Below are positions 22,289 through 45,614 of a DNA stretch of 64,000 bases, piece after piece. The notes below the pieces were generated by a model, which worked only from the letters and a program-made list of their open reading frames with translations, did no database searches and had not been told where the DNA came from. The stretch is from Billgrantia sulfidoxydans. Its GTDB lineage: Bacteria > Pseudomonadota > Gammaproteobacteria > Pseudomonadales > Halomonadaceae. Both the position numbers and the translations under genes were made by a program. Location: the NCBI RefSeq assembly GCF_017868775.1, contig NZ_CP053381.1:186001-250000 (forward strand), read 5' to 3'. Within the stretch, counting starts at the first letter, position 1, and each line of letters opens with the position of its first letter.

Positions 22289-22549
22289 ATGCACCGCTCG
22301 ACCCCGATACGCGGCGAGTTCCACAGGGACTTTCCCTCCCCCCGGACAGGTGGCCGCGCTCTTCCACGGCCAGTCGCCGTGGACCTGATGCCATACCAGG
22401 CGTTCGTCATGCGCGACAACGCTAAGGACCCATGCCCGCCATGCCAATCGCATGGCCGCCGAGCGGCCACAGCCAATCGCGTACAACCACGGCGGATAGC
22501 GCAAACTGATGCGCAGATCAGCGAAATGAAGGTGGCACTCCCCCGATGA
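22289..22549 (+). CDS. Doubtful small ORF between btuD and the ferredoxin-like gene
   Basis: An 86-codon frame starts at an ATG with GAGGTG just upstream, inside the end of btuD, and ends as ATGA overlapping the next gene. That layout looks like translational coupling. The sequence (rich in Arg, Pro and His) matches no family I know and lacks any domain-like pattern. It could be a decayed or merely open frame in the 257-base gap; I see nothing else in that gap. Confidence 0.25.
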   Translation: MHRSTPIRGEFHRDFPSPRTGGRALPRPVAVDLMPYQAFVMRDNAKDPCPPCQSHGRRAATANRVQPRRIAQTDAQISEMKVALPR

Positions 22550-23235
22550 GACTGTTTCAGCTGAAACATGAACTCGAGGCGCATGGGCTCGTTTTGCGCG
22601 GAGCCTTCGAGGTGGAGCCGGAGGATCATGTGCCCCCGATTGCCCACGCCATCCCGGCCGCAGCACTGGTGCTAGTGGGTAATGTCGGTTCGTCGCTGTG
22701 GCCCCAATTCGCTGCTTCGCCCGAATATTGTGACGGAAGACGCGATCCGCTGGACCGCTGGAGCCAACGCATTGGAGAGGCGCTTGCTGCCCGCTACGGT
22801 GCGCGTGCGCTCTATCCGTTCGGCGGGCCGCCGCATTATCCCTTTCAGCGCTGGGCGTCGCGTGCCGAGTCGGTACACCCATCTCCGCTCGGCCTGGTCA
22901 TACACGCCGAATACGGCTCGTGGCACGCCTACCGCTTCGCGCTCGCGCTTGACCACGTGCCGGACGATCTCGCGCCAATGGCCGAACACGAGTCGCCGTG
23001 CCTGGGATGCGCCGAGCGTGCCTGTCTCGACGCCTGTCCGGTCGATGCCTTCACCGGTTCCGAGTATCGGATCGGAGCTTGCGCACAGCACCTGCGCGAC
23101 ATGCCCGACGGCGCCTGCATGCGGCTGGGCTGCGCGGCGCGACGTGCCTGTCTGGTCGGTGCCCCATCACGCTACGACTCGCAACATGCGGCATTCCACA
23201 TGCAGGCCTTCGTTTTCGCTCGATCATCCGAATAG
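22546..23235 (+). CDS. QueG-like 4Fe-4S protein (possible corrinoid-linked reductase)
   Basis: This 229-residue protein has a C-terminal half (about 145-215) with two cysteine groups, CLGCAERACLDACPVDAF and CMRLGCAARRAC, that resemble the two 4Fe-4S clusters of epoxyqueuosine reductase QueG. It also shares the GxxxxY/FHMxAF ending. The N-terminal part is shorter than in QueG and I see no full cobalamin domain. It lies between B12 uptake genes and the corrinoid methyltransferase operon, so it may donate electrons to, or reactivate, cobalamin. That role is inference from context. Confidence 0.65.
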   Translation: MRLFQLKHELEAHGLVLRGAFEVEPEDHVPPIAHAIPAAALVLVGNVGSSLWPQFAASPEYCDGRRDPLDRWSQRIGEALAARYGARALYPFGGPPHYPFQRWASRAESVHPSPLGLVIHAEYGSWHAYRFALALDHVPDDLAPMAEHESPCLGCAERACLDACPVDAFTGSEYRIGACAQHLRDMPDGACMRLGCAARRACLVGAPSRYDSQHAAFHMQAFVFARSSE

Positions 23236-23272: not shown

Positions 23273-25285
23273 TCATGTTCGAGTACGGCGCGGTGGTCCG
23301 ATGGCCAAGGCCGTTACCCTCGCCTCGAAGAAGACTTCCCCGTCGATGTCGTTATCGACACGGTTTTCCTCAATCTCGAAGCGCACCTCCACCTCGGCCG
23401 CACCGGCCTGCCAAGCCAAGGCTTCAGCGCGCTCGGCGGCCGTTTGCCGCGCCATCGCATAGGCTGCCTCGAGTGTGACGTGGTCGCAGGGGCCATTGGG
23501 CAGGAAGACCCTAAAGCGGCCTTGTACTGGCTGCAGAACAGAGACATGAACTCGCTGAACCACTTGGCCGAGCAGCGTGCCCACGGCGTTAGCCACCTCG
23601 CCGTGGGAAGGCAACACAACTTCGGCGCCCAGCGCCTCGCCAACCGCCGGATAGTAGCTTGCTGCCGGCCCGCCCACCGCGACCACAGGGGATGTCGGCG
23701 CGAATTTCAGCGTGAAGACCGATGGGGCCACGGCGACACGGGACTTCCCACGCAGGATCAATGCCGCCAAGGAGGCCGCCAGCCGCCCTTGCTGGCTATC
23801 GACATCGGCATCATGCAGCCCCGCCTCGATCAGTTTGGTAGAGATGGCCTCGACCACTCGGCCATAGATCTCGCGTGATGGCGCTTCCGCATCGCCTTCC
23901 GGCCAGCGTCCAAGCCCGTATTGGCGGCGCATGCGCTTGGCCCAGATGATCGCTGCCAGGCGGGCGGCCTCGACATCCCAGTGGCGTGAGATACCCAGGA
24001 CATGGGCGGCATCGGTGGGTGTGAAACCGCTGAAGATCACCAGGCCACGACGTTCCAGGCTGGTTAGTGCACGGGCCAGCCAGCGTTTCTCTTCCACCGC
24101 ACTCAGCATTTCCACTGGTCCGTCGCCCAACTGCGCCCAGGCCTCATGCTCATCGACGCTGAGCTGGCCCATAAGCGCTTCGTCGTGTTGTAGGCGCATG
24201 GCGAAGCGATTATGGTTGCTGCCCGGAGGAAGGTTGAGCTGCCGCAGCAGGGCCTCGTGTAGCTCGGGATGCTGACTGACCAACAGGCTCATGGGCAACA
24301 CGCGGCGAGGTCCGATGGCAAGGCCTCGACCAGGCGCGAAGGTGACTTCACTATCGCCGCCAAGGCCGATGGAATAGAGCTTGATCGCCTCTACCATGGG
24401 ACGCCAGTCCCCCACCCGGGCGCCGTCGAAGGAGAGCGTCGGCAAACCGTCTCGCACCACGGCAATATCCGTCGTGGTTCCCCCCATGTCGGCGACGATC
24501 AGGTTACGGCGGCCGCTAAGCATCATGGCGCCGTTGACACTGGCCGCTGGCCCGGACAGCACCGTGGTGATGGGCTGCAGGATGGCGCTGTCAGCGGAAA
24601 TCAGTGAACCGTCGCCCTTCACGATCATCAGCGGTGCCAAAATACGGTGGCGGTGCAACAGCCCTTGGACCGCCTCAATGAGACGAGCAACATAGGCGAT
24701 CATGCGGGCATTCAGCGCTGCGGTCATGGCACGGCGCGGCGCCCCCAGAGAAGCCGCCAGCTCATGGCCGCAGGTCACCGGTTTGCCTGTCAGCTCATGC
24801 ACGAGTTCCGCCGTGCGCTGCTCGTGAGCCGGGTTGCGGACACTGAAGGAGGCCGAGACGGCAAAGGCCGATACCCGCTCCCGCCAGGCCAGGATTGTTC
24901 TGCGTAGGGCTTGCTCATCCAGGGGCGCGAGTTCGCGACCTTCCGCGTCATGGCCGCCGCCCAGCATAATCAGACTGTTGGCGCCAAGGAGTGAGACCAG
25001 TCCGGTCGCCTTGACCTGTCGCTCGTCATACCCAATCAGTAGTACACAGATCGGTGCTCCCTTGCCCTCTACCGCCGAGTTGGTCGTCAGCGTCGACGAC
25101 AGTGACACCAGGTCGACCCGGGACAGCAAGTCGGCGGGCAGCGCCCTCAAGGCATCGGCGATGCCCTGCTGAAGGTCCAGGCGCGTCGTCAGACGCTTGG
25201 CCATCGCCACCACCTGGTCGGCCTCGTCCAGGAGGACCGCGTCGGTAAAGGTACCGCCCGTATCGATGCCCAGCCGATAACCCAT
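23273..25285 (-). CDS. Hydantoinase/oxoprolinase-family protein (HyuA-like)
   Basis: This 670-residue protein starts GYRLGIDTGGTFTDAVLL, the N-terminal signature of the hydantoinase A/5-oxoprolinase family. It contains NLIVADMGGTTTDIAVV near residue 275, an actin-like ATP fold motif. It is the last gene of the minus-strand corrinoid operon (start 93 bases after the ASKHA gene stop). There is no partner HyuB gene, which argues against true hydantoinase activity. ATP-binding relatives occur beside corrinoid methyltransferases, so it could be an ATP-dependent reactivation partner; this is inference. Confidence 0.75.
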   Translation of the reverse strand: MGYRLGIDTGGTFTDAVLLDEADQVVAMAKRLTTRLDLQQGIADALRALPADLLSRVDLVSLSSTLTTNSAVEGKGAPICVLLIGYDERQVKATGLVSLLGANSLIMLGGGHDAEGRELAPLDEQALRRTILAWRERVSAFAVSASFSVRNPAHEQRTAELVHELTGKPVTCGHELAASLGAPRRAMTAALNARMIAYVARLIEAVQGLLHRHRILAPLMIVKGDGSLISADSAILQPITTVLSGPAASVNGAMMLSGRRNLIVADMGGTTTDIAVVRDGLPTLSFDGARVGDWRPMVEAIKLYSIGLGGDSEVTFAPGRGLAIGPRRVLPMSLLVSQHPELHEALLRQLNLPPGSNHNRFAMRLQHDEALMGQLSVDEHEAWAQLGDGPVEMLSAVEEKRWLARALTSLERRGLVIFSGFTPTDAAHVLGISRHWDVEAARLAAIIWAKRMRRQYGLGRWPEGDAEAPSREIYGRVVEAISTKLIEAGLHDADVDSQQGRLAASLAALILRGKSRVAVAPSVFTLKFAPTSPVVAVGGPAASYYPAVGEALGAEVVLPSHGEVANAVGTLLGQVVQRVHVSVLQPVQGRFRVFLPNGPCDHVTLEAAYAMARQTAAERAEALAWQAGAAEVEVRFEIEENRVDNDIDGEVFFEARVTALAIGPPRRTRT

Positions 25286-25378
25286 TGGGGCCTCTCCTCA
25301 TGTACTTGGGTGTTTTGCCGACCACCCTTGGTGTCATTCTGTGCAGCCACATTGACAGAGCGTTAGAGAGTCGCCCCT

Positions 25379-27403
25379 TCAGGCGCGCTGCCGGCGCCGG
25401 CGCCGGCCGCCGCGCGCTGTGGCGCTGGCATCCTCCGTCACCGCCGGCAGGGTCACGTGGGCGCTCAGTTGCGGGAAGGGATCGTGGCGATGAGGGATCG
25501 CCATGGCGGCCACGAAGTGCTCCTGGAAACGCGGCTCGGTGGCGGTCTCCACCTTTTCCACGCGGCGCACCACCTCCTCGATTTCGCGGCGCGCCTTGCG
25601 GCTCAATAGGGCGATGCGCGCGCCCGTGCCAGCGGCGTTGCCCGCCGAGGTGACGTGCGCCAGATCACAGTCGGGGATCAACCCCAGGGTCATGGCGTAC
25701 TTGACGTCGATGTGAGCGCCGAAGGCCCCGGCGAGGCGGATGCGATCGACGCGGTCGGTGCCGAAGTGCTCCATCAGCAGGCGGATGCCCGCGTAGAGCG
25801 CGGCCTTGGCCAGCTGGATGGCGCGGATGTCGGCCTGGGTGATGGCAATGGTCCGCGTCGCGTCGCGATGCAGCACGTAGGCGAAGGTGCGCCCGTCGGC
25901 CACGATCCGTTCGCTGCGCGCCGCCAGGCCGCCCTGCACGATGCCGTCCCGAGTGATGACGCCGGCCAGGTACATCTCGGCGACGACCTCGATGATGCCC
26001 GAGCCGCAGATGCCCGTGATACCGTGGGACGCCATCGCCGCGTCGAAGCCCGGCTCGTCGGACCACAGCTCGCCACCGATGACCTTGAAGCGCGGCTCCA
26101 GCGTCAGGGGGTCGATGCGCACCCGCTCGATGGCACCGGCAGCCGCCCGCTGCCCGCCGCTGATCTGGGCGCCCTCGAAGGCCGGCCCGGTGGGGCTGGA
26201 GCAGGCCAGCAGCCGGTGGCGGTTGCCCAGCACGATCTCGGCATTGGTGCCCACGTCGACCAGCAGCATCAGTTCCTCGCCCAGGTAGGGCGACTCGGAG
26301 AGGATCATCCCGGCGGTGTCGGCCCCCACGTGCCCGGCGATGCAGGGCAGGCCATAGACCCGGGCGTTGGGGTGGATGGCCAGGTCCATCTCGGTGGCCC
26401 ACAGCCCGTCGATGGCCTCGTCGGTGGCCAGCGCAAAGGGCGCACCGCCCAGCTCCACCGGGTTGATGCCGAACACCAGGCTCTGCATGATCGGGTTGCC
26501 GACGAAGGTCGCCTCGAGGATGGCGTCCAGCGGCACGTCAGCCTCGGTGGCCAGTTCCACCGTCAGCTCGTTCAGGGCGTCGCGCACCGAGCGCGTCATG
26601 GCCTGATCGCCGCTGGGGTGCATCATGATATAGGAGACCCGACTCATCAGGTCCTCGCCGTAGCGGATCTGCGGGTTCATGCGCCCGGTGGAGGCGACCA
26701 CCTCGCCGGTCTGCAGATGGCACAGGTGGGCGGCGATGGTCGTCGAGCCCACGTCCACGGCTAGGCCGTAGGCCTGCGCCTGGAAGCCCGGCCAGACGGC
26801 GATGAGGCGGCGGTCGTCGTGGACCGCCACCGTCACGCCCCAGCCGCCCCGGCGCAGGGCCTGCTGCAGTTGCTGGACGACGCGGATGTCGGTTTCCAGC
26901 CCGGTCAGCCGCCACTCGTGGGCCAGGGCCTCCTTGAGGCGGCGCATGTCCGAGGCCGGAACGTGCATGTCCGGCTCCTGCACCTCCACGTAGTAGAGGC
27001 GCACGATGGGGTCGAGCGCGATGTCGAGCACCTCGGCCCGCTTGCGCACGATCTGACGGTGCACCTGGCTGGCAGGCGGCACATCGATCACGGCGTCGCC
27101 GAGCAGGAGGGTCGAGCAGCTCAGCCGACGGCCGTCGCGCAGCGGCCCGCGACGCTTCTCCCAGGCCTGCTCGGTGTCGCTCTTGGCGGAGAGGTGATCC
27201 GGCCATGACGAGACCCCGTGCTTAGCGAAGCGCCCCTCGCAGAGGTCGACCTGGCAGCGGCCGCACAGGCCGCGCCCGCCGCACACCGAATCGATGTCGA
27301 CCCCCAGCGCGCGAGCAGCCTCCAGCACCGGGGTGCCGACCGGGAAGCGTCCGCGGCGCCCGGAAGGGGTGAAGACGACGAGCGCTTCGTGAGCATCGGA
27401 CAT
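25379..27403 (-). CDS. Corrinoid reactivation protein (2Fe-2S + ASKHA domain, RamA/AcsV-like)
   Basis: This 674-residue protein uses ATP and low-potential electrons to reduce inactive Co(II) corrinoid to Co(I). The N-terminus has a plant-type 2Fe-2S site (Cys41, Cys47, Cys50 in CGGRGLCGRC, and a further Cys near 96). The large C-terminal part is the DUF4445/ASKHA ATPase, with YGLAVDVGSTTIAAHL near 212 and LLVDVGTNAEIVLG near 380. It follows the methyltransferase gene in the operon, as expected of an activator for a methylamine- or betaine-type corrinoid system. Confidence 0.88.
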   Translation of the reverse strand: MSDAHEALVVFTPSGRRGRFPVGTPVLEAARALGVDIDSVCGGRGLCGRCQVDLCEGRFAKHGVSSWPDHLSAKSDTEQAWEKRRGPLRDGRRLSCSTLLLGDAVIDVPPASQVHRQIVRKRAEVLDIALDPIVRLYYVEVQEPDMHVPASDMRRLKEALAHEWRLTGLETDIRVVQQLQQALRRGGWGVTVAVHDDRRLIAVWPGFQAQAYGLAVDVGSTTIAAHLCHLQTGEVVASTGRMNPQIRYGEDLMSRVSYIMMHPSGDQAMTRSVRDALNELTVELATEADVPLDAILEATFVGNPIMQSLVFGINPVELGGAPFALATDEAIDGLWATEMDLAIHPNARVYGLPCIAGHVGADTAGMILSESPYLGEELMLLVDVGTNAEIVLGNRHRLLACSSPTGPAFEGAQISGGQRAAAGAIERVRIDPLTLEPRFKVIGGELWSDEPGFDAAMASHGITGICGSGIIEVVAEMYLAGVITRDGIVQGGLAARSERIVADGRTFAYVLHRDATRTIAITQADIRAIQLAKAALYAGIRLLMEHFGTDRVDRIRLAGAFGAHIDVKYAMTLGLIPDCDLAHVTSAGNAAGTGARIALLSRKARREIEEVVRRVEKVETATEPRFQEHFVAAMAIPHRHDPFPQLSAHVTLPAVTEDASATARGGRRRRRQRA

Positions 27404-27502
27404 GGGAACCTCCGTCCACAGGGGTTCGTTCAGGAGAGCGAAGCGCCTCAGGCGAGGCGCTTGCGTTGTTCGTTGTTATAGTGGTCTGGCAACTATTCGC
27501 GC

Positions 27503-28417
27503 TCAGGTCACGGCGCGGCGTCGGCGCGTCTGCCGCCGCCCGCGCCCTTCGGCCCCGTCCGCACCGACGGCCGGTGGCTCACGGAATTTCTGGATCCAGC
27601 GCATACAATCGGGGTCGTGCCCCATCATCACGTCGGCGCCCATGATCGCGGTCATGATCTCGGTGTGCAGCGGGTTGGTGATCGCCGAGGTCATCCCCGA
27701 GGCGATGGCCATGCTCATGAACGCCGCATTAATGCCGTTGCGGTTGGGCAGGCCGAAGCTGACGTTGGAGGCCCCGCAGGTAGTGTTGACCTTGAGCTCC
27801 TGCTGCAGGCGGTGGCACAGGGCAAATACCTGGCGGCCCGCCGAGTTCACCGCGCCGATCGGCATCACCAGCGGATCGACCACCACGTCGCAGGCAGGGA
27901 TGCCGTGGTCGGCGGCGCGCTCGACGATCTTCTTGGCGACGGCGAAGCGCACGTCGGGGTCGTGGGAGATGCCGGTTTCATCGTTGCTGATCGCCACCAC
28001 CGCCGCCCCATATTTCTTCACCAGCGGCAGCACCGCCTCGAGGCTCTCGTCCTCGCCGGTCACCGAGTTGACCAGCGCCTTGCCCTTATAAACCGCCAGG
28101 CCCGCCTCGAGTGCCTTGATGACCGAGGAGTCGATGCACAGCGGCACGTCGGTCAGCGACTGCACCAGCTCGACGGTCTGGGCCAGGATCGCCGGTTCGT
28201 CGGCTAGCGGGATGCCGGCATTGACGTCCAGCATGTGCGCGCCGTGCGCCAGTTGATCCTCCACGTCCTTGACCACGCGGGAGAAGTCGCCGGCGGCCAT
28301 TTCCGCAGCCAGCTGCTTGCGGCCAGTGGGGTTGATGCGCTCGCCGATGACCACGAAGGGCCGCTCGAAGCCGATCACGACTTCCTTCTTGTGCGAGCTG
28401 ATGACAGTATCGGTCAT
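27503..28417 (-). CDS. Methyl-THF:corrinoid methyltransferase (MtgA-like)
   Basis: This 304-residue pterin-binding-domain protein starts FVVIGERINPTGRKQLA and has DVNAGIPLADEPAIL, the TIM-barrel pterin motif of the MetH/AcsE/MtgA group. It lacks other domains, so it should move a methyl group between a separate corrinoid protein and THF, forming methyl-THF in the catabolic direction. It sits 108 bases after the MTHFR-like gene in the same operon. The C-terminal tail (GRGRRQTRRRRAV) is unusually basic and may be extra. MtgA is the partner known for glycine betaine demethylation in Desulfitobacterium. Confidence 0.88.
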   Translation of the reverse strand: MTDTVISSHKKEVVIGFERPFVVIGERINPTGRKQLAAEMAAGDFSRVVKDVEDQLAHGAHMLDVNAGIPLADEPAILAQTVELVQSLTDVPLCIDSSVIKALEAGLAVYKGKALVNSVTGEDESLEAVLPLVKKYGAAVVAISNDETGISHDPDVRFAVAKKIVERAADHGIPACDVVVDPLVMPIGAVNSAGRQVFALCHRLQQELKVNTTCGASNVSFGLPNRNGINAAFMSMAIASGMTSAITNPLHTEIMTAIMGADVMMGHDPDCMRWIQKFREPPAVGADGAEGRGRRQTRRRRAVT

Positions 28418-28525
28418 GATGCTTCCTCAGTGATGGTGTCTTGTCGTTGCTATTGGGTGCCTGCGGAAGGCGTTGTCGTTAACTGTGGCGTTGCGGCTCC
28501 AAGCTGGCGGTCGGATAAGGATGGG

Positions 28526-29590
28526 TCATCCCGACACAGGCTCGAACTCTTCCGCCAGCGCGTCGGGCGACTCCGGATTGAGTTCGGCCGGGTTGTCGCG
28601 CCCCGGGTACCAGGGCACGCGGCCCTCCAGCACGCCGGTGCCTTCGATGATCTCGGCCACGGTATGCTCCTGGCGGTAGGCCATGATGTGGGCACCGCTG
28701 ACCCCAGGGATCTCGCGGATCTGGTGAAGTAGGTCCATGCACAGCCGCTTGCCCTCCTCCTTCTGGTTCTGGGCGCCCTCGAGGCGCGCGATCACAGCAT
28801 CGGGGATGTGCACGCCGGGCACGTTGTCGCGGATCCAGCGTGCACTGCGCGCCGAGGCGAGCGGCCCGACGCCGGGCAGGATGAATACGCGGTCCGGCCC
28901 CTCGAGCAGCCCCAGGTCGTTCACCTTGAGCATGAAGTCACGCAGCCGGGGGATGTCGAAGCAGTACTGGGTCTGGATGAACTGCGCCCCGGCAGCGACC
29001 TTCTTGGCCAACCGGTGCGGGCGCCACTCCAGGGGTGGCACAAAAGGGTTCTCGGCCGCGCCGAGGAAGATCCGCGGTGGCACGTCGATCTTGCGCCCGC
29101 TCTGGAAGCGACACTCGTCGCGCATACCACGGGCGATCTCCAAGAGCGACATGGAGTCGAGATCGAACACTGGCTTGGCTTGGGGATGGTCGCCGGCCTG
29201 GACGCCGTCGCCGGACAGGCACAGTAGGTTGCAGGCGCCCATGGCCGCGGCCCCCAGGATCTCGCCCTGTATGGCGATGCGGTTCCGGTCGCGGCATGAG
29301 ATCTGCAGAATGGTGGCATAACCCACTCGGGTGAGCAGCGAGCAGACCCCGACGCTGGACATGTGGCAGTGCGCACCGGAGCCGTCGGTGGCGTTGATGG
29401 CATCCACGTAACCGTCGAAGATCGCCGCACGCTTGAGCACCTCGGCGGGGTCGGCGGAGTCCGGCGGGTCGATCTCGCTGGTGATGGCAAACTTGCCGGC
29501 GCGCAGCACGCGCTCCAGGCGCCCGGGCGAGACGTGGCCCGGCAGGATCGGCAGGGAGTAGCCCGGTACGGGCTCGTCGTCGAACTTCAT
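28526..29590 (-). CDS. Methylenetetrahydrofolate reductase-like protein (MetF family)
   Basis: This 354-residue protein has the MTHFR fold: an EIDPPDSADP start motif, LCLSGDGVQAGDHPQAKPVFDLD around residues 130-150 and GAQFIQTQYCFDI near 215. It is longer than MetF (about 290). It would oxidise methyl-THF to methylene-THF. The stop of the upstream MetV-like gene overlaps its start (ATGA), so the two are coupled, as in MetF-MetV pairs of acetogens and other C1 operons. Confidence 0.85.
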   Translation of the reverse strand: MKFDDEPVPGYSLPILPGHVSPGRLERVLRAGKFAITSEIDPPDSADPAEVLKRAAIFDGYVDAINATDGSGAHCHMSSVGVCSLLTRVGYATILQISCRDRNRIAIQGEILGAAAMGACNLLCLSGDGVQAGDHPQAKPVFDLDSMSLLEIARGMRDECRFQSGRKIDVPPRIFLGAAENPFVPPLEWRPHRLAKKVAAGAQFIQTQYCFDIPRLRDFMLKVNDLGLLEGPDRVFILPGVGPLASARSARWIRDNVPGVHIPDAVIARLEGAQNQKEEGKRLCMDLLHQIREIPGVSGAHIMAYRQEHTVAEIIEGTGVLEGRVPWYPGRDNPAELNPESPDALAEEFEPVSG

Positions 29591-30069
29591 TTCACGGCTC
29601 CGCTATCCGCGCGCTCGCGGGTTGGATCGGCCAGCTTGCGCACCACGCGCAGCCAGGACGAGGAATCCTTCAGGCGGAAGTCGACCGGCTGCTGCACCAC
29701 CTGGATGCGATCGCCATACTTCATCCGGCGGCTGCCTTCCCAGGCCTCGACCCACACGCAGCGCATCTCCGGCTTGACCTCACAGTGGCCGTTGGCACGC
29801 ACCCCGCCGCAGGGGCCGTTGCGCAGGTTCTTGGGGCAATTCATGGGGCAGGACATGCCGGTGGCGGAGAGCGCACACAGTCCGCACATCTGGCAATCGA
29901 ACAGCAGGCCCTTGACGCCCTTCTCGATAGCCTTGACCGGGGCCTCGACGCGTTCATAGCCGATTCGCCGCCATAGCGGATGCAGCTTGACCAGCAGCGG
30001 CTCGAAGCCTCGATACACCCATTCGAACAGCCGGGCGTGACGGACCACCCAGCGCCTCACCTTGTACAT
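29587..30069 (-). CDS. MTHFR C-terminal-domain (MetV-like) Cys-rich protein
   Basis: This 160-residue protein contains a dense cysteine stretch at about 55-97 (FDCQMCGLCALSATGMSC, PMNCPKNLRNGPCGG, HCEV, CVW), typical of MetV, which binds metal or Fe-S and partners the MetF-like subunit. Overlap with the next gene supports a two-subunit MTHFR. It starts MYKVRRWVVRHARLF, probably with a GGAGG-type site upstream. In this operon it should support methyl-THF oxidation. Confidence 0.85.
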   Translation of the reverse strand: MYKVRRWVVRHARLFEWVYRGFEPLLVKLHPLWRRIGYERVEAPVKAIEKGVKGLLFDCQMCGLCALSATGMSCPMNCPKNLRNGPCGGVRANGHCEVKPEMRCVWVEAWEGSRRMKYGDRIQVVQQPVDFRLKDSSSWLRVVRKLADPTRERADSGAVK

Positions 30070-30147
30070 CCTCTCCCTCCTTGCCTCCGCCCCCGAGATC
30101 GGGGACCGCGGCCATGGTCATTGTTTTTGTCGTCGTCGCGGGCGCTC

Positions 30148-30453
30148 TCAGGCGGGCAGGGCCAGCCCCTTCTGGCGCACCAACTGCTTGAGTGCCTCGT
30201 CATCGAAGCTTGCCTCGAGGCGTGCCGCCTCGGCTTCGGCCTCCGCCTGCAGGTTGTCGCTGCACTCGCGCGGGACGCTGCGCTGCCAGTCGGCCATGTA
30301 CGCCTCCGAGCCGCCCTTGCCAGCCCGCATGGCCGCCCGGTCGATGGCGTGCTGGAAGCGCGGCGACAGTAGCACCTTGGCACTCTTGCGCCCCTGCTTG
30401 GTGATTACCTGGGCGGGAATATCCCGCCAGCTGACGATGGTCAGAGTTGTCAT
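30148..30453 (-). CDS. 'Virulence factor' family small protein (unknown role)
   Basis: This 101-residue protein (MTTLTIVSWRDIPAQVITKQGR) matches a small conserved family carrying the Pfam name Virulence_fact. The name gives no function. Here it overlaps the DUF1638 gene by 4 bases and lies 78 bases before the MetV-like gene, inside the corrinoid C1 operon. The middle is helical and acidic. Co-location suggests a folding, loading or scaffold role for the methyltransferase system, which is inference. Confidence 0.75.
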   Translation of the reverse strand: MTTLTIVSWRDIPAQVITKQGRKSAKVLLSPRFQHAIDRAAMRAGKGGSEAYMADWQRSVPRECSDNLQAEAEAEAARLEASFDDEALKQLVRQKGLALPA

Positions 30454-31061
30454 GTTGCTCGCTCTACAGCGACCGGCTCTGAGACCAAGCGGACCAGGGA
30501 GGTCGCCAGCTCGCCGTAGCCGGTATGCCGGTATTCGAAGGAGAGTCCGAGTCGTGCGGCGGCACGCTGGGCCGCCGCCTGAAGAGCGGGATCGTCACGC
30601 TGCGACAAGTAGACGAGCCGGCGATACTGGCCGAAATAGAGACTTGCGAGTTGGGGGTGGTGCTCGATGCCGAGCTCCTGGATGACCAGCCGGTCGAAGT
30701 GGCGCACGAGAAAATCGGTCAGATAAAAGGTGCCCAACTCTTGTTCGCTGAGCGCCGCGATCACCGACTCCCCGGCATAGACGTCATAGCAGTGTGCCCC
30801 CGGCAACCGTTCGGCGCCATGCTCGGCCAGCACTTCGTCCAGCAATCCGCCCGTACCGCAGTCGGCGTAGGCTACGAAAATGCGCGAGTACCGCGATGCT
30901 TCCCGCAGTTTCCTGCCCACGGCCTCGGGTATCCGATCCGGCCGATTGTGCAGGTCCGCTGGCAGGCATTCCAGGCGCACATCATGCCAGTCATTGGCGT
31001 CGATCAGGGCCATGATCTCCCTAGCCAACGCACCGCAGGCAATGATGAGCGTGGATGACAT
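30450..31061 (-). CDS. DUF1638 domain protein in the corrinoid operon
   Basis: This 203-residue protein starts at ATG 31061 (MSSTLIIACGALAREIMAL). An upstream extension to 31223 would overlap the corrinoid gene and is rejected. DUF1638 proteins often neighbour corrinoid methyltransferases and have an IIACGAL start and an ADCGTGGLLD motif (near 95). They carry conserved Cys and His residues that could bind a metal or cofactor, and their biochemical function is unknown to me. It lies 19 bases after the corrinoid gene and overlaps the next gene by 4 bases. Confidence 0.8.
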   Translation of the reverse strand: MSSTLIIACGALAREIMALIDANDWHDVRLECLPADLHNRPDRIPEAVGRKLREASRYSRIFVAYADCGTGGLLDEVLAEHGAERLPGAHCYDVYAGESVIAALSEQELGTFYLTDFLVRHFDRLVIQELGIEHHPQLASLYFGQYRRLVYLSQRDDPALQAAAQRAAARLGLSFEYRHTGYGELATSLVRLVSEPVAVERAT

Positions 31062-31080
31062 GACGGCGGACCTCCTCGGC

Positions 31081-31782
31081 TCAGGCGGCGCGACGCGTCG
31101 CGATGAGTTCCTTGGCCATATCGACCGCCACCCCGGCATCGCGGCAGTAGGCATCGGCACCGATGGCCTGGCCGAACTCTTCATTGAGCGGGGCGCCACC
31201 GACCATGACGATGACATCGTCACGCAGCCCCTTCTCGACCAGCGTATCGATGACGACTTTCATGTAGGGCATGGTGGTGGTTAGCAGCGCCGACATGCCA
31301 AGGATGTCTGGCCTGTGCTCTTCCAGCGCTTCGATGTAGGCTTCCACTGGGATATTGATACCGATGTCGATCACCTCAAAGCCGGCACCTTCCATCATCA
31401 TCGACACCAGGTTTTTGCCGATGTCGTGAATGTCGCCCTTGACGGTACCGATCACGATCTTTCCGATGGTCTCGGAGCCGGAAGCTGCCAGCAGGGGGCG
31501 CAGCACTTCCATGCCCCCCTTCATGGCATTGGCTGCCATCAATACTTCGGGGACGAAGAGGATGCCGTCACGAAAATCGACACCAACGATGGCCATGCCG
31601 CCCACCAGTGCTTCGTCGAGCACTTTGTTGGCGCTCCAGCCACGCTCGAGCAGGATCTCGGTGCCTTCGACCACTTCGTCGCGTAGCCCATTGTAGAGAT
31701 CGTCGTGTATTTGCTCGACGAGCTCGTCATCGGGTAGGTCGTTTAGGTCGAAGTCTTCGTTTTCATTGTACTGTTCTGTCAT
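31081..31782 (-). CDS. Corrinoid (B12-binding) methyl-carrier protein
   Basis: This 233-residue protein is the methyl carrier between the MttB-type and MtgA-type enzymes. It has a helical cap (about 15-100) and a B12-binding Rossmann domain. The DxHxxG lower-ligand motif is GDIHDIGKN, with Asp117, His119 and Gly122. Start ATG 31782 (MTEQYNENEDF) has AGGAG-type bases nearby; an upstream in-frame ATG at 31869 is less likely. It is the first gene of the minus-strand operon. It is most like MtbC/MttC/MtgC-type proteins. Confidence 0.93.
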   Translation of the reverse strand: MTEQYNENEDFDLNDLPDDELVEQIHDDLYNGLRDEVVEGTEILLERGWSANKVLDEALVGGMAIVGVDFRDGILFVPEVLMAANAMKGGMEVLRPLLAASGSETIGKIVIGTVKGDIHDIGKNLVSMMMEGAGFEVIDIGINIPVEAYIEALEEHRPDILGMSALLTTTMPYMKVVIDTLVEKGLRDDVIVMVGGAPLNEEFGQAIGADAYCRDAGVAVDMAKELIATRRAA

Positions 31783-32106
31783 GGCGCTCCGCTCCTGGTC
31801 ATTCCATACCCAAATTACGGGTATGGTTGCGAATGCAGCGTATGCGCTCGCCTTAGGGAACATATCCATGCAAGCGACGCCTTCATGTCGAAAAGCGCCA
31901 TGCGCCTCGCTCCTTCTGGCGTTTTTAAAATATCTTGCAGTTTATTGATTTGAGTCAATTTTTACGATTTTCAAACTTTTCCCTCGTGGTCGCTGCGACA
32001 ACGTTTCGCGTCGCCTGCAGACATGCGCGCCGATGCCACCGGAGTAAATTGCGACGCATGCCTGAACAACTTCAACAACAACAGCCAAGTGACGCCGAGG
32101 TTAGCC
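31783..32106. other. Divergent control region of the corrinoid operon and purU
   Basis: This 324-base gap separates the two divergent C1 units. It is AT-rich near 31920-31990, with a run TTTTTAAAATATC, and holds the perfect ANR/DNR box at 31945. No credible gene is present; small open frames here read into purU. Confidence 0.7.
31945..31958. promoter_or_regulatory. Perfect ANR/DNR-type box between the two C1 units
   Basis: TTGAT-TTGA-GTCAA matches the Dnr/Anr pattern TTGAT-N4-(A/G)TCAA at every position, flanked by A and T so that the symmetry extends one base each side. It lies 162 bases from the corrinoid gene start and 148 from the purU start. It could activate either direction under low oxygen or nitrosative signals. 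Confidence 0.75.
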
Positions 32107-32985
32107 ATGTCCGCTATGATCGAAGGGAAGAATATTTACTTGCTGAAGGCCAACTGCAAGGGGGCCATCGGTACCGTTTCCCGACTTACTACCTACCTTG
32201 CCCAGCGTCACTGCTACATCATGGAGCTGGCCCAGTTTGATGAAATTGAAACCGGTAATTTTTATGTCCGCTGCGTTTTTTCCACCACACCTGGCATCAC
32301 TCCCAAGTTGGAGGAACTCAGGACCGAATTCGGCCAGGGCGTTGCCGAGCGCGACGGCATGGAGTGGGAGATGCACGACACCCTGGCCCTGCCCAAGGTG
32401 CTGATCATGGTGTCGAAGTACGATCATTGCCTCGATGATCTTTTGTATCGACAGCGGACTGGCGAGATCAAGATGGAGATTCCGGCCATCGTCTCCAATC
32501 ACCCCGACCTAAAGCGCCTCGCCGACTGGTATGAGATTCCTTTCTATCACCTACCCATTACACCGGAGACCAAGCAGGAACAGGAGCGCCAGGTACTCGA
32601 CCTCATTGAGGAAACGGGGGCCGAGCTGGTCGTCCTTGCGCGTTACATGCAAATCCTTTCCTCCAACCTATGCGAGGAACTGGCTGGTCGCGCCATCAAT
32701 ATCCACCACTCTTTCCTTCCGGGCTTCAAAGGCGCCAAGCCCTATCACCAGGCCTTTGAGCGGGGCGTCAAGCTGATCGGCGCCACCGCCCACTACGTTA
32801 CAACCGACCTGGACGAAGGGCCGATCATCGAACAAGTCGTCGAACGGGTCGACCACACCTACAGTCCTGCCCAATTGGCAGCCGTGGGACGCGATGCCGA
32901 GAACATGGCGCTGTCGCGGGCGGTCCGTTACCACCTGGAGCATCGCGTCTTCCCCAATGGCAACAAGACCGTCGTCTTCCGCTGA
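32107..32985 (+). CDS. purU: Formyltetrahydrofolate deformylase PurU
   Basis: This 292-residue enzyme hydrolyses 10-formyl-THF to formate and THF. It has an N-terminal ACT domain (about 8-90) and a formyltransferase-like hydrolase domain with [20 protein letters not shown] near 195-215. Start ATG 32107 ([17 protein letters not shown]) has GAGG upstream. An in-frame ATG at 32023 gives an unusual Asn-rich leader and is rejected. In this operon, PurU would release methyl-derived carbon as formate and regenerate THF. Confidence 0.93.
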
Positions 32986-33008
32986 GGCGCCCGACAGGAG
33001 GAAAGACC

Positions 33009-33929
33009 ATGTCCATCCTGATCGATGGCAAGGCCCACGCCGCTCGGCTTCGCGAAGAGATCGGCCGTCAAGTAGGCAGACTGCGTCAGCACGACCTGAT
33101 CACACCCGGCCTGGCCGTGATCCTCGTCGGCGAGGATCCAGCCAGTCAAGTCTATGTGCGCAACAAGGCGACCCAGGCCCGGGAAGCTGGCATGTCCTCG
33201 TTCGAATACCGCCTGGCTGACAGCGTGCCCCAAATCCAGTTACTCGACCTGATCGAGCGGCTCAACTGCGATCCGGAAGTGCACGGCATCCTGGTCCAGC
33301 TGCCGCTACCGCCTCAGGTCGATGAGGCACGTGTAATCCAGGCCATCTGTCCAGCCAAGGACATTGATGGCTTCCATCCGATCAACGTGGGCAACATCGC
33401 CACGGGGGGATACGGGATGGTGCCCTGCACGCCACTCGGCTGCCTGACGCTGCTCAAATTTCAACTGGGTGATCTGAGTGGCAAGCGTGCCGTAGTGCTG
33501 GGGCGCTCCAACATCGTTGGCAAGCCGATGGCCAGCCTGCTGCTGAAGGAGCACTGCACCGTGACCGTCGCGCACTCACGCACACGGCAACTCGAGGAGG
33601 TGTGCCGTCAGGCAGACATCTTGGTGGCTGCGGTAGGCCGGCCGTGCCTGGTCAAGGAGGACTGGATCAAGCCCGGGGCCACGGTGATCGACGTAGGCAT
33701 CAATCGCATCGAGGCCGATGGACGGACGCGGCTGGTTGGAGACGTGGACTTCGAAGGTGCCCGCAAGGTTGCCGGCGCCCTTACACCGGTCCCCGGTGGC
33801 GTCGGCCCCATGACCATCGCCTGCCTGTTACTCAACACCTTGGAAGCCACCTGCCGACAGCATGACATTCCCTTCCCCGACGACATCATGTCGCTGGCTT
33901 GGGGGAGCACGTCGGCCGAGATGGCCTAA
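33009..33929 (+). CDS. folD: Bifunctional methylene-THF dehydrogenase/cyclohydrolase FolD
   Basis: This 306-residue enzyme converts methylene-THF to 10-formyl-THF in two steps. The catalytic YVRNKATQA motif (Tyr and Lys, about 50) and NAD(P)-binding [14 protein letters not shown] (about 165) are present, together with the [12 protein letters not shown] end motif. AGGAGG precedes the ATG. It lies 23 bases after purU, consistent with sequential action of MTHFR, FolD and PurU. It may be a second, pathway-dedicated copy; I cannot see the housekeeping copy. Confidence 0.95.
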
Positions 33930-34077
33930 TAACCGTCATCGCCTATGGCGATGGCGCTGCACAGCGGTAGACCAGTCGGTATATGCGGGTCGCTGGATGA
34001 GCAATGCCAGCCTGTCGGTGCTCCGCATGTTGCCCTCTCTCCAACCTACTTTCTGCAAAACAAAGCCGGAGAACGCC

Positions 34078-35637
34078 ATGGATTCCACCTCATCTCGCCG
34101 CCGTACCCGCACCGCTGGAAACGCCCGCCGCGCCGGTAGAGGGGCCACCGCCGTCTCGGTCCAGCCCTACGCCACACGCCAAATCCCTCACTTCGAAATC
34201 CTCGATCACGCGGGGCTCTCCCTCCTTGAGGAGAATGCCGACACCATCCTCGAGGAGATTGGCATCGATTTTCGCGACGATGAGGAAGCCCTGCAGATCT
34301 GGCGTGATGCCGGTGCCGACGTGCAGGGGGAGCGCGTACGCATGCCGCGTGGCCTGTGCCGGCGGCTGATCCAGGATAGCGCGCCTCGCCAGTTTACCCA
34401 GCACGCGCGAAATCCTGCACGCAATGTGGAGATCGGCGGGCCGCACACCGTCTACGTGCCTGCCTACGGCTGCCCCTTCGTGCACGACATCGACCGTGGA
34501 AGGCGCTATGGCACGCTCGAAGACTTCCAGAACTTCGTCAAGCTCGCCTACCTGTCACCGAGCCTCCATCACTCCGGCGGTACCATTTGTGAGCCAGTCG
34601 ACCTGCCGGTCAACAAGCGTCACTTCGACATGATCTACAGCCACATGAAGTACTCTGACAAGTGCTTCATGGGCTCGGTGACCCACCCAGATCGCGCCCG
34701 GGACACGGTCGAGATGGCCAAGATCCTGTTCGGCGAACGCTGGATCGATCCCGACACCGGCAAGCCGCGCACCTGTGTGATCAGCTTGATCAACGCCAAC
34801 TCGCCGATGACCTTTGATGACACCATGCTGGGTGCCGCAAAGGTCTATGCGCGAGCCAACCAGGCCTGCATCGTGACCCCCTTCATCTTGGCAGGCGCCA
34901 TGTCACCGGTGACCGTGGCCGGCACCGCCGCCCAGACCCTGGCCGAGGCCATGGCCGGTATGGCCTTCATACAGCTGGTGAACCCGGGCGCCCCGGTGGT
35001 GCTGGGCAGCTTCGCCAGCTCCATGTCGATGCAGTCCGGCGCCCCCACCTTTGGTACGCCGGAGCCGGCGCTGGTGCTCTACGTCATGGCGAGCCTGGCC
35101 CGCCGCCTCGGAGTACCCTTTCGTTCCGGCGGCTCGTTCACCGCCTCCAAGTTGCCTGACGCCCAGGCCGCCAGCGAGAGTGCCAACACCCTGCTGCCCA
35201 CCACCCTGGGCGGCGTCAACTTCGCGCTGCATTCGGCGGGTTGGCTGGAAGGGGGGCTGGCCATGGGTTACGAGAAGTTCATCATGGATGCCGACCAGAC
35301 CGGCATGATGCAGACGCTGCTCAAGGGTGTCGATCTGTCGGAGAACGGCCAGGCCATGGACGCCATTCGCGAGGTCGGCCCCGGCAAGCATTTCCTGGGC
35401 TGTGCGCATACCCAGGCCAACTTCAAGGACGCTTTTTACCTCTCACTGATCGCCGACAACAACAGCTTCGAGCAGTGGGATGCCGACGGCCGGCTGGACA
35501 TGGCCCAGCGCGCCAACGCCCGGTGGAAGAAACTACTCGCCGAATACGAGGCGCCGCCCTTGGATCCGGCGATTGACGAGGCTCTGCTCAACTACATGGC
35601 AACCCGCAAGGCAGCCTTCCCCGATTCCAATATATAG
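34078..35637 (+). CDS. MttB-family corrinoid methyltransferase without pyrrolysine (MtgB-like)
   Basis: This 519-residue protein belongs to the trimethylamine methyltransferase MttB superfamily. It takes a methyl group from a quaternary or tertiary amine for the corrinoid carrier. The frame has no in-frame amber codon, so it is a non-pyrrolysine member, like the glycine betaine methyltransferase MtgB. I start at ATG 34078 (MDSTSSRRRTRT), with CGGAG upstream. Motifs include FHILDHAGLSLL-type start, PAYGCPFVHDID and NPGAPVVLGSFASSMSMQSG. A BCCT transporter follows, which favours betaine. Confidence 0.9.
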   Translation: MDSTSSRRRTRTAGNARRAGRGATAVSVQPYATRQIPHFEILDHAGLSLLEENADTILEEIGIDFRDDEEALQIWRDAGADVQGERVRMPRGLCRRLIQDSAPRQFTQHARNPARNVEIGGPHTVYVPAYGCPFVHDIDRGRRYGTLEDFQNFVKLAYLSPSLHHSGGTICEPVDLPVNKRHFDMIYSHMKYSDKCFMGSVTHPDRARDTVEMAKILFGERWIDPDTGKPRTCVISLINANSPMTFDDTMLGAAKVYARANQACIVTPFILAGAMSPVTVAGTAAQTLAEAMAGMAFIQLVNPGAPVVLGSFASSMSMQSGAPTFGTPEPALVLYVMASLARRLGVPFRSGGSFTASKLPDAQAASESANTLLPTTLGGVNFALHSAGWLEGGLAMGYEKFIMDADQTGMMQTLLKGVDLSENGQAMDAIREVGPGKHFLGCAHTQANFKDAFYLSLIADNNSFEQWDADGRLDMAQRANARWKKLLAEYEAPPLDPAIDEALLNYMATRKAAFPDSNI

Positions 35638-35757
35638 CCGCCAGCTAAACCACGATGCCAACCGGTCCCGCCAAGCCGGCTGGCGTCCCGACTGGAGGAG
35701 CCGAAGCATTGGCGATCATCACCGCAACGAGATAACAACAACTTGAGGAATCTGTAG

Positions 35758-37431
35758 ATGAAAGAACCCATCTCACCACCCTCCGATGGAGTTCCAGCCC
35801 CCGAGGGCCCAGCCGACCTGATCGATACCGATTACGTGATCGGGCAGGACAACATCATCGGCGAGTTCAAGCTGAACCTGGACATCCACGGCAAGGTATT
35901 CGCCATCTCGGCCCTGGTCACGCTGTTCTTCGTCATTCTAACCCTGGCCCTGCACAGCGAAGTGGAGCCGCTGTTCACCGGGCTGCGCAACTGGCTGACC
36001 AGCCACCTCACCTGGTTCTTCCTGCTCTCCGCCAATATCTTCGTGGTGCTCTGCCTGGTGCTGGTCGTCTCGCCATTGGGCAAGGTGCGCATCGGTGGTG
36101 CCAACGCCAGGCCCGACTTCTCCTATTCGGCCTGGTTCTCGATGCTGTTCGCCGCCGGCATGGGCATTGGCCTGATGTTCTACGGCGTCTCGGAGCCCAT
36201 GTCGCACTTCGCCTCCTCTCTCGGCGGTACCAGCCTGGACGGTGGCATGCGCAGCGACTGGGCACCCCTGGGCGCCGCCGTCGGCAACCCCGAGGCGGCG
36301 GCGCGGCTGGGCATGGCGGCCAGCATCTTCCACTGGGGCCTGCATCCCTGGGCGATCTACGCCGTGGTGGCACTGGCCCTGGCGATCTTCTCCTACAACA
36401 AGGGCCTGCCGCTGACCATGCGCTCGATCTTCTACCCCATGCTGGGTGAGCGCATCTGGGGCTGGCCAGGCCATGCCATCGACATCCTGGCGGTCTTCGC
36501 AACGCTGTTCGGCCTGGCCACCTCGCTGGGATTGGGTGCCTCCCAGGCCACGGCGGGGCTGGGTTACCTGTTCGGCACGCCGGGTGGGGATACCACCATG
36601 GTGCTGCTGATCATCGGCATCACGCTGATCGCTATCCTCTCCATCGTGGCTGGCGTCGACAAGGGCGTGCGCCGGCTGTCAGAGATCAACATGGTGCTGG
36701 CTTTCCTGCTGCTGGCGTTCGTGATCGTCGTGGGCCCGACCCTGGTGATCTTCACCGGCGTACTGGACAATCTGGTCGCCTACATCACCCACCTGCCGGC
36801 GCTCTCGGCGCCGTTCGGTCGCGAGGATGCCAACTTCAGCCAGGGATGGACGGCCTTCTACTGGGCCTGGTGGATCTCCTGGTCGCCCTTCGTCGGCATG
36901 TTCATCGCCCGGGTATCACGCGGGCGCAGCGTGCGCGAATTCATCATCGCCGTACTGCTGATTCCCTCGCTGGTTTCGGTAGTGTGGATGACCGCCTTCG
37001 GCGGCACCGCCGTCAACCAGTTGGTGACCACTGGTTTCGAGGGTGTCCAGGATGCGGCCCTGGAGCTGCAATTGTTCGTGATGCTCGGCGAACTGCCGCT
37101 GACCGCCATCACCTCCTTCGTCGGCATCGTGCTGGTCGTGGTCTTCTTCGTCACTTCCTCAGATTCCGGCTCGCTGGTGATCGATACCATCACGGCCGGC
37201 GGCAAGGTCGACGCCCCCAAGCCGCAGCGCGTGTTTTGGGCGGTGATCGAAGGCCTGATTGCGATTGCTCTGCTGCTCGGTGGCGGGTTGGTCGCGCTGC
37301 AGGCCATGGCTGTCTCCACGGGCTTGCCATTCACATTGGTGCTTCTCGCAGGTTGTTTTGCAATCGTTAAAGGTCTGCTGAGTGAGCATCGCTTGATTAA
37401 TCCCAAGTATAGAAAAACATCGATCACATAA
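35758..37431 (+). CDS. BCCT-family betaine/carnitine/choline transporter
   Basis: This 557-residue protein has twelve predicted membrane helices and the BCCT signature WAWWISWSPFVGMFIARVSRG near residue 370. That region contains the conserved tryptophans of the substrate site. It couples quaternary-amine uptake to Na+ or H+. The ATG has TTGAGGA upstream. It follows the MttB gene by 120 bases, so it probably supplies the methyltransferase substrate. It could also serve osmoprotection, which is common in halophiles. Confidence 0.92.
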   Translation: MKEPISPPSDGVPAPEGPADLIDTDYVIGQDNIIGEFKLNLDIHGKVFAISALVTLFFVILTLALHSEVEPLFTGLRNWLTSHLTWFFLLSANIFVVLCLVLVVSPLGKVRIGGANARPDFSYSAWFSMLFAAGMGIGLMFYGVSEPMSHFASSLGGTSLDGGMRSDWAPLGAAVGNPEAAARLGMAASIFHWGLHPWAIYAVVALALAIFSYNKGLPLTMRSIFYPMLGERIWGWPGHAIDILAVFATLFGLATSLGLGASQATAGLGYLFGTPGGDTTMVLLIIGITLIAILSIVAGVDKGVRRLSEINMVLAFLLLAFVIVVGPTLVIFTGVLDNLVAYITHLPALSAPFGREDANFSQGWTAFYWAWWISWSPFVGMFIARVSRGRSVREFIIAVLLIPSLVSVVWMTAFGGTAVNQLVTTGFEGVQDAALELQLFVMLGELPLTAITSFVGIVLVVVFFVTSSDSGSLVIDTITAGGKVDAPKPQRVFWAVIEGLIAIALLLGGGLVALQAMAVSTGLPFTLVLLAGCFAIVKGLLSEHRLINPKYRKTSIT

Positions 37432-37448
37432 TTGAGTTGTGATAGAGA

Positions 37449-37487
37449 AAGCCGGCTAGGAGGACTTGGAGTCCGCCTAGCCAGCTT
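37449..37487 (+). terminator. Hairpin terminator after the BCCT gene
   Basis: GGCTAGG-A-GGACT and AGTCC-G-CCTAGCC pair around a TGG loop, with further pairing of AAGC and GCTT at the base, followed by ATTTATC. The long stem and position 18 bases past the stop mark the end of the purU-folD-mttB-BCCT unit. Confidence 0.75.
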
Positions 37488-37642
37488 ATTTATCGATTTG
37501 TCGATTCATTAAGGGAGTGGTATCTGACTTTCTTGGTAGTGTCAGTGCGTGAATTACGATACGAAATATGTGCAGAAGTGCATGCATTAAAGAAGCGCTT
37601 CTACAGCGTTGTTGGTGGATCTAAGCTAAGGGAAAGATTGAT

Positions 37643-38668
37643 ATGGCTAGCTGTAATAAGCTCGAGCAAATTTTGACGTCTCGCGATTGGTTGCTGGCAG
37701 ATGGGGCTACGGGGACCAACCTGTTCGACATGGGTTTGACGTCTGGCGAAGCACCGGAATTGTGGAATGAGCTCTACCCTCGGAGAATTGCTCGAATGTA
37801 TACTCTAGCCTTGGAAGCCGGCAGCGATATTTTTCTGACTAATTCTTTTGGTAGTAATGCCGCACGGCTTAGGCTACATGGATCACAACACCGAGCTCGC
37901 GAATTATCTCGACTGTCCGCCGCCATCGCACGAGATGTAGCAGACCGCTATCCGCGCCCCATCGTTGTTGCAGGTTCTGTGGGGCCAACGGGTGAAATAA
38001 TGTCTCCCTTGGGCTCGCTAACTCATGAGTTGGCAGTGGAGATCTTTCATGAGCAGGCTGAAGGCCTCAAGGAAGGTGGTGCCGACGTATTGTGGCTGGA
38101 GACCATGTCATCAATTGAAGAACTTCAGGCTGCGAGCGATGCCTTTAAACTGGCCAGTATGCCTTGGTGTGGGACGATGAGCTTTGATACGGCTGGGAGA
38201 ACCATGATGGGTGTGACCGCTCAGAGCGCGATGGAGACGGTTGGTCAGATGCCTAACATGCCAGTAGCGTTTGGAGCGAACTGCGGCGTTGGGGCATCGG
38301 ATTTGATGCGCACGGTCCTGAACTTTACGTCTCAAGGTAATGCAGTCCCAATTATTGCTAAAGGAAATGCTGGCATACCGGAATACTTCGATGGACATAT
38401 TCGCTATAGTGGGACTCCTGAGCTCATGGCCGATTATGCGGTTCTGGCGCGGGACGCGGGAGCCAAAATAATTGGTGGCTGCTGTGGTACGACTCCGGAG
38501 CATCTCGCTAGGATGCGCGCAGCGCTTGAAGAAAGGCCGCGAGGTGAACGACCCACTTTGGAGCAGATTCGCAATGTGCTGGGTGAATTCTCCTCGGTCA
38601 GTGATGACCATGGTAAATCCCGGGAAGGACCTAATCGTCGAAATCGCCGAAGTAAATTTAACAAGTGA
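37643..38668 (+). CDS. Betaine-homocysteine S-methyltransferase-like protein
   Basis: This 341-residue protein belongs to the zinc-dependent homocysteine S-methyltransferase family. It starts with LADGATGTNLFDMGL and has the zinc ligands Cys214 (GANCGVG) and Cys280-Cys281 (GGCCGTT). It would remethylate homocysteine from betaine or a related donor. Base composition is distinctly less GC-rich than its neighbours, suggesting recent acquisition. It follows a strong terminator and is probably expressed alone. The C-terminal tail (KSREGPNRRNRRSKF) is extra and basic. Confidence 0.85.
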   Translation: MASCNKLEQILTSRDWLLADGATGTNLFDMGLTSGEAPELWNELYPRRIARMYTLALEAGSDIFLTNSFGSNAARLRLHGSQHRARELSRLSAAIARDVADRYPRPIVVAGSVGPTGEIMSPLGSLTHELAVEIFHEQAEGLKEGGADVLWLETMSSIEELQAASDAFKLASMPWCGTMSFDTAGRTMMGVTAQSAMETVGQMPNMPVAFGANCGVGASDLMRTVLNFTSQGNAVPIIAKGNAGIPEYFDGHIRYSGTPELMADYAVLARDAGAKIIGGCCGTTPEHLARMRAALEERPRGERPTLEQIRNVLGEFSSVSDDHGKSREGPNRRNRRSKFNK

Positions 38669-39443: not shown

Positions 39444-39475
39444 GATGCGTCCACCTGTCGGCAGGGAAAACCGCC

Positions 39476-45033: not shown

Positions 45034-45047
45034 GGCGATCTCCAGGG

Positions 45048-45525: not shown

Positions 45526-45614
45526 CGGCATGGCCGATGGCGGCGTTCTGGCCTGATGTGGCATGTAAGATACCGCTTAAGATCATGTCTCCATCGTCCG
45601 CCCGGTACCTGCCC

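Follow-up and report, generated by a model that had tools for sequence, protein, structure and literature searches.

A 64-kb window of the Billgrantia sulfidoxydans genome (contig NZ_CP053381.1; the window is the whole stretch analysed, 64,000 nucleotides) was investigated by Pfam and NCBIfam scans of its proteins. Two divergent units at 23273–38668 constitute an Mtg-type corrinoid methyltransferase gene set, with an MttB-family methyltransferase, its cognate corrinoid protein and a methylcorrinoid:tetrahydrofolate (THF) methyltransferase all in one locus. From the centre outward, the minus-strand unit encodes MtgC, a DUF1638 protein, a PF13769 protein, a MetV-like protein, methylenetetrahydrofolate reductase (MTHFR), MtgD, RACo and a HyuA-like protein. 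The plus-strand unit encodes, in order, PurU, FolD, the MttB-family protein, a BCCT importer and an MtgE-like module. The features are:

23273–25285, minus strand: HyuA-like (hydantoinase/oxoprolinase A) protein, 670 residues (PF05378 and PF01968)
25379–27403, minus strand: RACo/RamA-type reductive corrinoid activase with a 2Fe-2S domain (PF14574, PF17651, PF17650, PF00111)
27503–28417, minus strand: MtgD-like methylcorrinoid:THF methyltransferase, pterin binding (PRK07535, 363.6 bits against a cut-off of 259)
28526–29590, minus strand: MTHFR (MetF2-like), converting methyl-THF to methylene-THF (PF02219)
29587–30069, minus strand: MetV-like MTHFR partner (DUF5981), cysteine-rich (PF12225)
30148–30453, minus strand: small conserved PF13769 protein without assigned role (Pfam; present in the divergent loci L002–L008)
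30450–31061, minus strand: DUF1638 protein, proposed to serve in corrinoid reactivation (PF07796)
31081–31782, minus strand: MtgC-like corrinoid carrier with a DxHxxG motif (PF02310 and PF02607)
31945–31958, unstranded: candidate FNR/Anr-type box TTGATttgaGTCAA, a pattern match with one mismatch, between the two units
32023–32985, plus strand: PurU formyl-THF deformylase (TIGR00655, over cut-off)
33009–33929, plus strand: FolD methylene-THF dehydrogenase/cyclohydrolase (PRK14188, over cut-off)
about 34078–35637, plus strand: MtgB-like predicted glycine betaine:corrinoid methyltransferase, non-pyrrolysine MttB family (PF06253, E 1.6e-230)
35758–37431, plus strand: BCCT-family importer (PF02028; TIGR00842 over cut-off; below the cut-off of the betaine-specific NF047988)
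37643–38668, plus strand: MtgE-like homocysteine methyltransferase module (PRK07534, over cut-off)

The initial annotation had named the carrier, the MttB-type protein, the methyl-THF methyltransferase, the reactivase, FolD, PurU and the BCCT importer, and the scans recovered each of them in its place. Its 'MTHFR pair' at 28526 and 29587 was half correct: the first gene is an MTHFR by its PF02219 match, while the second is DUF5981/MetV-like and not an MTHFR. The DUF1638, PF13769, HyuA-like and MtgE-like proteins had not been named, the last lying just outside the interval 23273–37431 then considered.

Judged by its gene content, the locus very probably encodes an Mtg-type pathway of corrinoid-dependent betaine demethylation. 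According to this model, betaine would be imported by the BCCT protein, and MtgB would demethylate it once to dimethylglycine without oxygen, the methyl group being taken up by the cob(I)alamin of MtgC. MtgD would hand the methyl group from MtgC to THF; the MTHFR with its MetV-like partner, FolD and PurU would then oxidise it to formate, freeing THF. Oxidised corrinoid would be re-reduced by RACo with the DUF1638 protein and perhaps HyuA. Such a chain from betaine over methyl-corrinoid and methyl-THF to formate, as initially suggested, fits the gene content, the predicted betaine-site residues and the neighbourhood of the Rieske demethylase genes gbcAB (see below). The best NCBIfam match of the carrier is MtgC, at scores below cut-off (NF047996, 223 bits against 370; NF047995, 172.1 against 310), and the protein is related to these two models without being a member of either. 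The HyuA-like protein has glycine-rich motifs at residues 8, 266 and 537, which we take to be of the ASKHA type, and no HyuB partner was found among the window genes scanned for families. As a guess, it might be an accessory protein, possibly an ATPase acting on the corrinoid protein or in corrinoid reactivation. For DUF1638, a role in corrinoid reactivation is proposed in PMC12478193.

At least 586 relatives of the MttB protein were confirmed in genome contigs. The best 80, all with at least 68% identity, were kept; the closest named relatives among the matches listed are from Billgrantia campisalis and Halomonas species. Many of these 80 loci end early at contig ends; the sequence retrieved included mtgC in 27 and a HyuA match in 18, twelve of the latter with at least 58% identity. 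The divergent mtgC/purU layout is shared by loci from Billgrantia, Halomonas and Pseudomonas (L002–L007; L008 is without a purU match), and the gene set is therefore not a chance collection. Across the family Halomonadaceae, MttB is carried by 12 out of 275 genomes. The window protein is the single match in its own genome, and its frame is open with no internal stop, hence without pyrrolysine. In the close relative G110 mttB is split between two frames (contig C1, 257475–259030).

With respect to the substrate, the MttB protein scored 741 bits against PDB 4yyc, which we take to be the Sinorhizobium enzyme. Its scores with the betaine methyltransferase entries 9yce and 2qne (441 bits) and with 7xcl, a trimethylamine enzyme (124 bits), were lower. 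Docking predicted Y94, N199, R309 and H345 as betaine contacts in Desulfitobacterium MtgB (2qne; PMC6855144). Mapped by hand on the alignment with these entries, in which 9yce is numbered one higher, these correspond to Y130, N239, R349 and H385 of the window protein, and 7xcl has tyrosine at the aligned R and H places. All four residues are also kept in the 80 best relatives, a modest test because those relatives are close. Furthermore, five of the 12 Halomonadaceae carriers (G072, G086, G103, G199, G260) have gbcA and a gbcB homologue immediately next to the mtg operon; the query for the flanking gene is itself a GbcB (690 bits against a cut-off of 500). For the other seven carriers, gbcA lies elsewhere or, in G112, was not found over cut-off. 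The predicted-site residues and the gbcAB synteny give good support to glycine betaine as the substrate, and this neighbourhood also backs a betaine assignment for the clade of MttB proteins concerned. In G103 the mtg operon lies between two gbcA homologues (L150, 3606–4790 and 15796–17079).

Rieske-type demethylation of betaine requires oxygen. The genome under study encodes this route as well, with GbcA at about 4.375 Mb (851.5 bits against a cut-off of 670) near GbcB, formaldehyde dehydrogenase, a second BCCT gene and ETF/iron-sulphur genes; SoxB/SoxA-type sarcosine oxidase genes are also present. The contrast drawn in the initial annotation with betaine users relying on Rieske-type oxygenases is thus wrong for this organism. 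GbcA was over cut-off in 10 of the 12 MttB carriers, the exceptions being G199, where it is split over two frames and below cut-off, and G112 with a best match of 124.5 bits. The Mtg route would be expected to work beside the oxygen-dependent GbcAB in this lineage.

MetH, too, was over cut-off in all 12 carriers, and the idea that MtgCDE stands in for a lost MetH was rejected on this ground. The gene is in one frame in nine carriers and split in G000 (this genome; L122, contig C1, 2279232–2282784, two frames), G110 and G199; the splits fall at different places, which makes assembly indels likely. The MtgE-like module is nearer to MetH (1q7m, E 1.3e-35) than to mammalian BHMT (1umy, E 3.4e-11), and modules of comparable strength were found among the 12 carriers in G000, G040 and G110 only. 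Because GbcA and MetH coexist, the corrinoid system is here, unlike in Ruegeria, neither the sole betaine demethylase nor needed as the sole methionine synthase.

The promoter region shared by the two units contains the candidate FNR/Anr-type box. The window has six occurrences of the pattern TTGATNNNNATCAA with at most one mismatch, where 0.60 would be expected, and none of 100 shuffles reached this number. At least one of the six sites (55806) is inside a gene; exact matches number seven in the whole genome against none for the reversed control. Near gbcAB, no such site was seen in nine stretches scanned. The 67 records matching mtgC were reduced to 57 distinct upstream regions by dropping two with fewer than 150 bases upstream and eight duplicates. 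Eleven of these contain the box, compared with 0.64 expected from first-order Markov resampling. Ten boxes fall between −176 and −184 relative to the start of mtgC; three of these are in Pseudomonas and seven in Halomonas-group loci, the window and G110 being nearly identical among the latter. The eleventh is at −214, in another family of the order. A MAFFT alignment of 15 loci with the same layout, picked regardless of the box, showed it at one place in ten. Over the 15 loci, pairwise identity reached 0.92 in the left half and 0.58 in the spacer; the right half had 0.46, against 0.52 for the remaining intergenic sequence. The left half is kept in all 15, and only three of 218 other five-column stretches reach its identity. 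In the ten box loci the right half is 0.82 identical, these loci having been chosen for possessing the box. Strong cytochrome-d1 matches occur in 7/7 Halomonadaceae carriers with the box versus 2/5 without it (one-sided Fisher p 0.045, a small sample not corrected for kinship).

Further elements were noted. Two GC-rich, partly palindromic elements of the CGAC...GTCG type flank the box (31873–32030) and are possibly the operator of another regulator; their strict pattern was present in 11 of the 14 same-layout loci looked at, some of them box-less, versus 1/8 others. An FNR-type site with one mismatch (38953–38966) lies upstream of a gene for an SdhB-like iron-sulphur protein (39236–40183), and another (45473–45486), together with a weaker look-alike near 45512 seen by eye, just before NirDL-type genes.

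The surroundings of the operon were also analysed; the gene list is partial, some window genes having been skipped in gene calling. Two features are of interest here:

17413–17628, plus strand: cobalamin riboswitch (Rfam RF00174, 95.8 bits)
62665–63435, minus strand: Fnr/Anr-type regulator with an N-terminal cysteine cluster (NF008365, 245.5 bits against a cut-off of 228)

The riboswitch is followed by btuB, btuF, btuC and btuD-like genes (17413–22287), a B12 supply adjoining the mtg operon. An open reading frame at 22546–23235 (229 residues, no Pfam match at 1e-5 and no NCBIfam match at 1e-10) contains a ferredoxin-like cysteine stretch and might supply electrons for corrinoid activation. Anaerobic genes of the window are those for NrdD and a radical-SAM protein and, downstream, for two cytochrome-d1-domain proteins, NirDL-type proteins, a radical-SAM protein, a tetrapyrrole methylase and NnrS. 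A cytochrome c, a COX1-family protein, a NorQ-type ATPase and a VWA protein were read as NorC, NorB, NorQ and NorD. The description of the genome as 'denitrifier-type' is borne out by the cytochrome-d1-domain proteins, NnrS, the NorQ-type ATPase, the Nor-like genes and the Fnr/Anr gene downstream. From their lengths, the two cytochrome-d1 proteins are suggested to be NirF and NirN. An assignment of 43819–45564 as NirS was dropped, as the match length fits NirF better; a cytochrome-d1 match of NirS length is found at 132790–133950 of this genome, outside the window. At E 1e-20, no NCBIfam match was obtained for 43819–45564, 49788–51317 and 55680–57026. The region separating the mtg operon from the nir genes includes a cytochrome P450 gene (42621–43778) with a neighbouring MarR-type regulator.

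Across the family, cytochrome d1 (best E below 1e-60) is present in 9 of 12 MttB carriers versus 66 of 263 non-carriers (p 0.0006). Within the genus the link is not significant (9/10 versus 54/80, p 0.13), and the family-wide co-occurrence was therefore set aside as evidence.

In view of these data, we slightly favour an explanation in which an Mtg betaine demethylase exists beside GbcAB and is keyed to oxygen through the FNR-type site. This site in the shared divergent promoter probably ties mtg to oxygen status, with expression most likely raised at low oxygen, where betaine would feed denitrification. An oxygen-free route feeding respiration had been proposed initially; the FNR-type box and the anaerobic gene island are in favour of it, and the use in anaerobic respiration is the part still inferred. 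Anaerobic use of the Mtg route, presumably in denitrification, is in our estimation evenly balanced; its odds were lowered once the alignment of all 15 loci showed conservation of the box to be confined to the left half. A general statement that halophilic denitrifiers possess two oxygen-keyed betaine demethylases, GbcAB of the Rieske type for air and a corrinoid Mtg system induced by Anr for oxygen-free conditions, is more tentative and falls a little short of even.

Several observations weigh against this explanation. Closely related systems operate in aerobic Ruegeria. None of MtgC, RACo, MttB and BCCT reaches the threshold of the NCBIfam model that fits it best (BCCT does exceed that of the general TIGR00842). 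In the right half of the box conservation is no better than in the rest, its identity being equalled or exceeded by 121 of the 218 other five-column stretches, and this half is lost in five of the 15 loci (G042, G092, G112, G199, G260); the half-site identity of 0.91 refers to the ten loci selected for having the box. L126 and L127 are without the box though their mtgC genes are 87 and 85% identical, and two of the five box-less carriers have strong cytochrome-d1 matches. Only G000 and the near-identical G110 were seen to have the operon close to a nir/nor island, and proximity as a general feature was rejected for this reason: in G103 about 85 kb separate the operon from the nearest cytochrome-d1 match, and in G040, G042, G053, G072, G086 and G092 such matches are on other contigs. 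At FNR-activated promoters the site is centred about −41.5 from the transcription start. No −10 element was seen at the classical FNR distance from the box, and the single sigma-70-like match, on the minus strand, takes half of the box as its −35. Because of these two findings FNR could also repress.

An alternative, rather unlikely in our view, is that some halomonads have just acquired the aerobic MtgBCD betaine demethylase already known from marine bacteria, and that it has no particular connection with anaerobic life. This would account for the same module set with B12 uptake genes nearby and for the incomplete box in five of 15 loci; moreover, the published system is aerobic (Ruegeria) and reported in Gammaproteobacteria too (PMC12478193). 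However, aerobic demethylation is already covered by GbcAB in most carriers, and neither the FNR-type box at one place in two thirds of the loci (10/15) nor the anaerobic gene neighbourhood in this genome would be expected. Still less probable is a box that is no FNR site, the left half representing another element or a −35 hexamer and the right half being coincidental. The persistence of the left half in 15/15 loci, with the right half lost in five, and the minus-strand sigma-70-like match would agree with this, whereas no consistent −10 was found by eye on either strand of the box-locus sequences, and the right half occurs at the exact 4-base spacing in 10/15 loci of the Halomonas group and Pseudomonas whose flanks differ widely. 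Finally, action on another quaternary amine (carnitine, proline betaine or gamma-butyrobetaine) could be proposed from MttB relatives with such activities in Eubacterium (discussed in PMC12478193), from the replacement of the aromatic F353 of MtgB in the window protein, where a tryptophan (W389) lies nearby, and from the sub-threshold score of the importer with the betaine-specific model, and is improbable given the predicted betaine-site residues in 80/80 of the best relatives and the gbcAB neighbours in 5/12 carriers.

If the oxygen-keyed pairing of Mtg with GbcAB is true, a main osmolyte of saline habitats drives denitrification as an electron donor in a B12-dependent manner, and vitamin B12 supply would influence denitrification there. 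The promoter box offers a direct genetic test of the oxygen keying.

Among known systems, the chloromethane pathway of aerobic Alphaproteobacteria (CmuA/CmuB with metF, folD and purU) likewise transfers a corrinoid-bound methyl group to THF for subsequent oxidation; it differs in substrate and in methyltransferase I. The Desulfitobacterium hafniense MtgB shares the non-pyrrolysine MttB family, the predicted betaine-site residues and the B12 chemistry; the window protein is more distant from it (441 bits) than from the 4yyc-type enzyme (741 bits), and the host is here a respiratory Proteobacterium and there an anaerobic Gram-positive. The betaine methyltransferase cluster of strain DCMF (PMC9768040) has in common the HyuA-like protein, betaine transporters and MttB-family enzymes, and a HyuA-type protein is induced there together with the betaine methyltransferases; in contrast, DCMF is a fermentative anaerobe with three MttB-family genes in its cluster. 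A further counterpart is MtgBCDE of Ruegeria pomeroyi and Phaeobacter inhibens. PMC12478193 (2025) describes an aerobic betaine demethylase in R. pomeroyi with THF-linked methyl oxidation, MtgC and MtgD being identified by mutants and MtgB by proteomics; it reports mtg loci in Alpha-, Gamma- and Deltaproteobacteria and mentions bacteria with GbcAB and without MtgBCDE. Shared are MtgB, MtgC, MtgD, MtgE, RamA, DUF1638, a metF paralogue, BCCT and the THF-linked oxidation. Since the mtgC and mtgD mutants of R. pomeroyi established the route, it is not biochemically new, and the initial claim of a distinct way to use betaine does not hold. The main text of PMC12478193 is without the words Halomonas, nitrate or denitrif-. 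No publication tying the Mtg route to denitrification, Halomonas or Anr was found by title or beginning of abstract in a search mostly outside subscription journals, and absence in print is not claimed. In comparison with Ruegeria and Phaeobacter, the genes are here in a divergent cluster (clustering being reported in PMC12478193 for S. meliloti and others too), both GbcAB and MetH are encoded in addition, and the locus has an FNR-type box and lies in an anaerobic island. The chemistry has thus been described before; what appears to be new is its pairing with GbcAB in denitrifying halomonads, together with the FNR-type site at the shared promoter of this and related loci.

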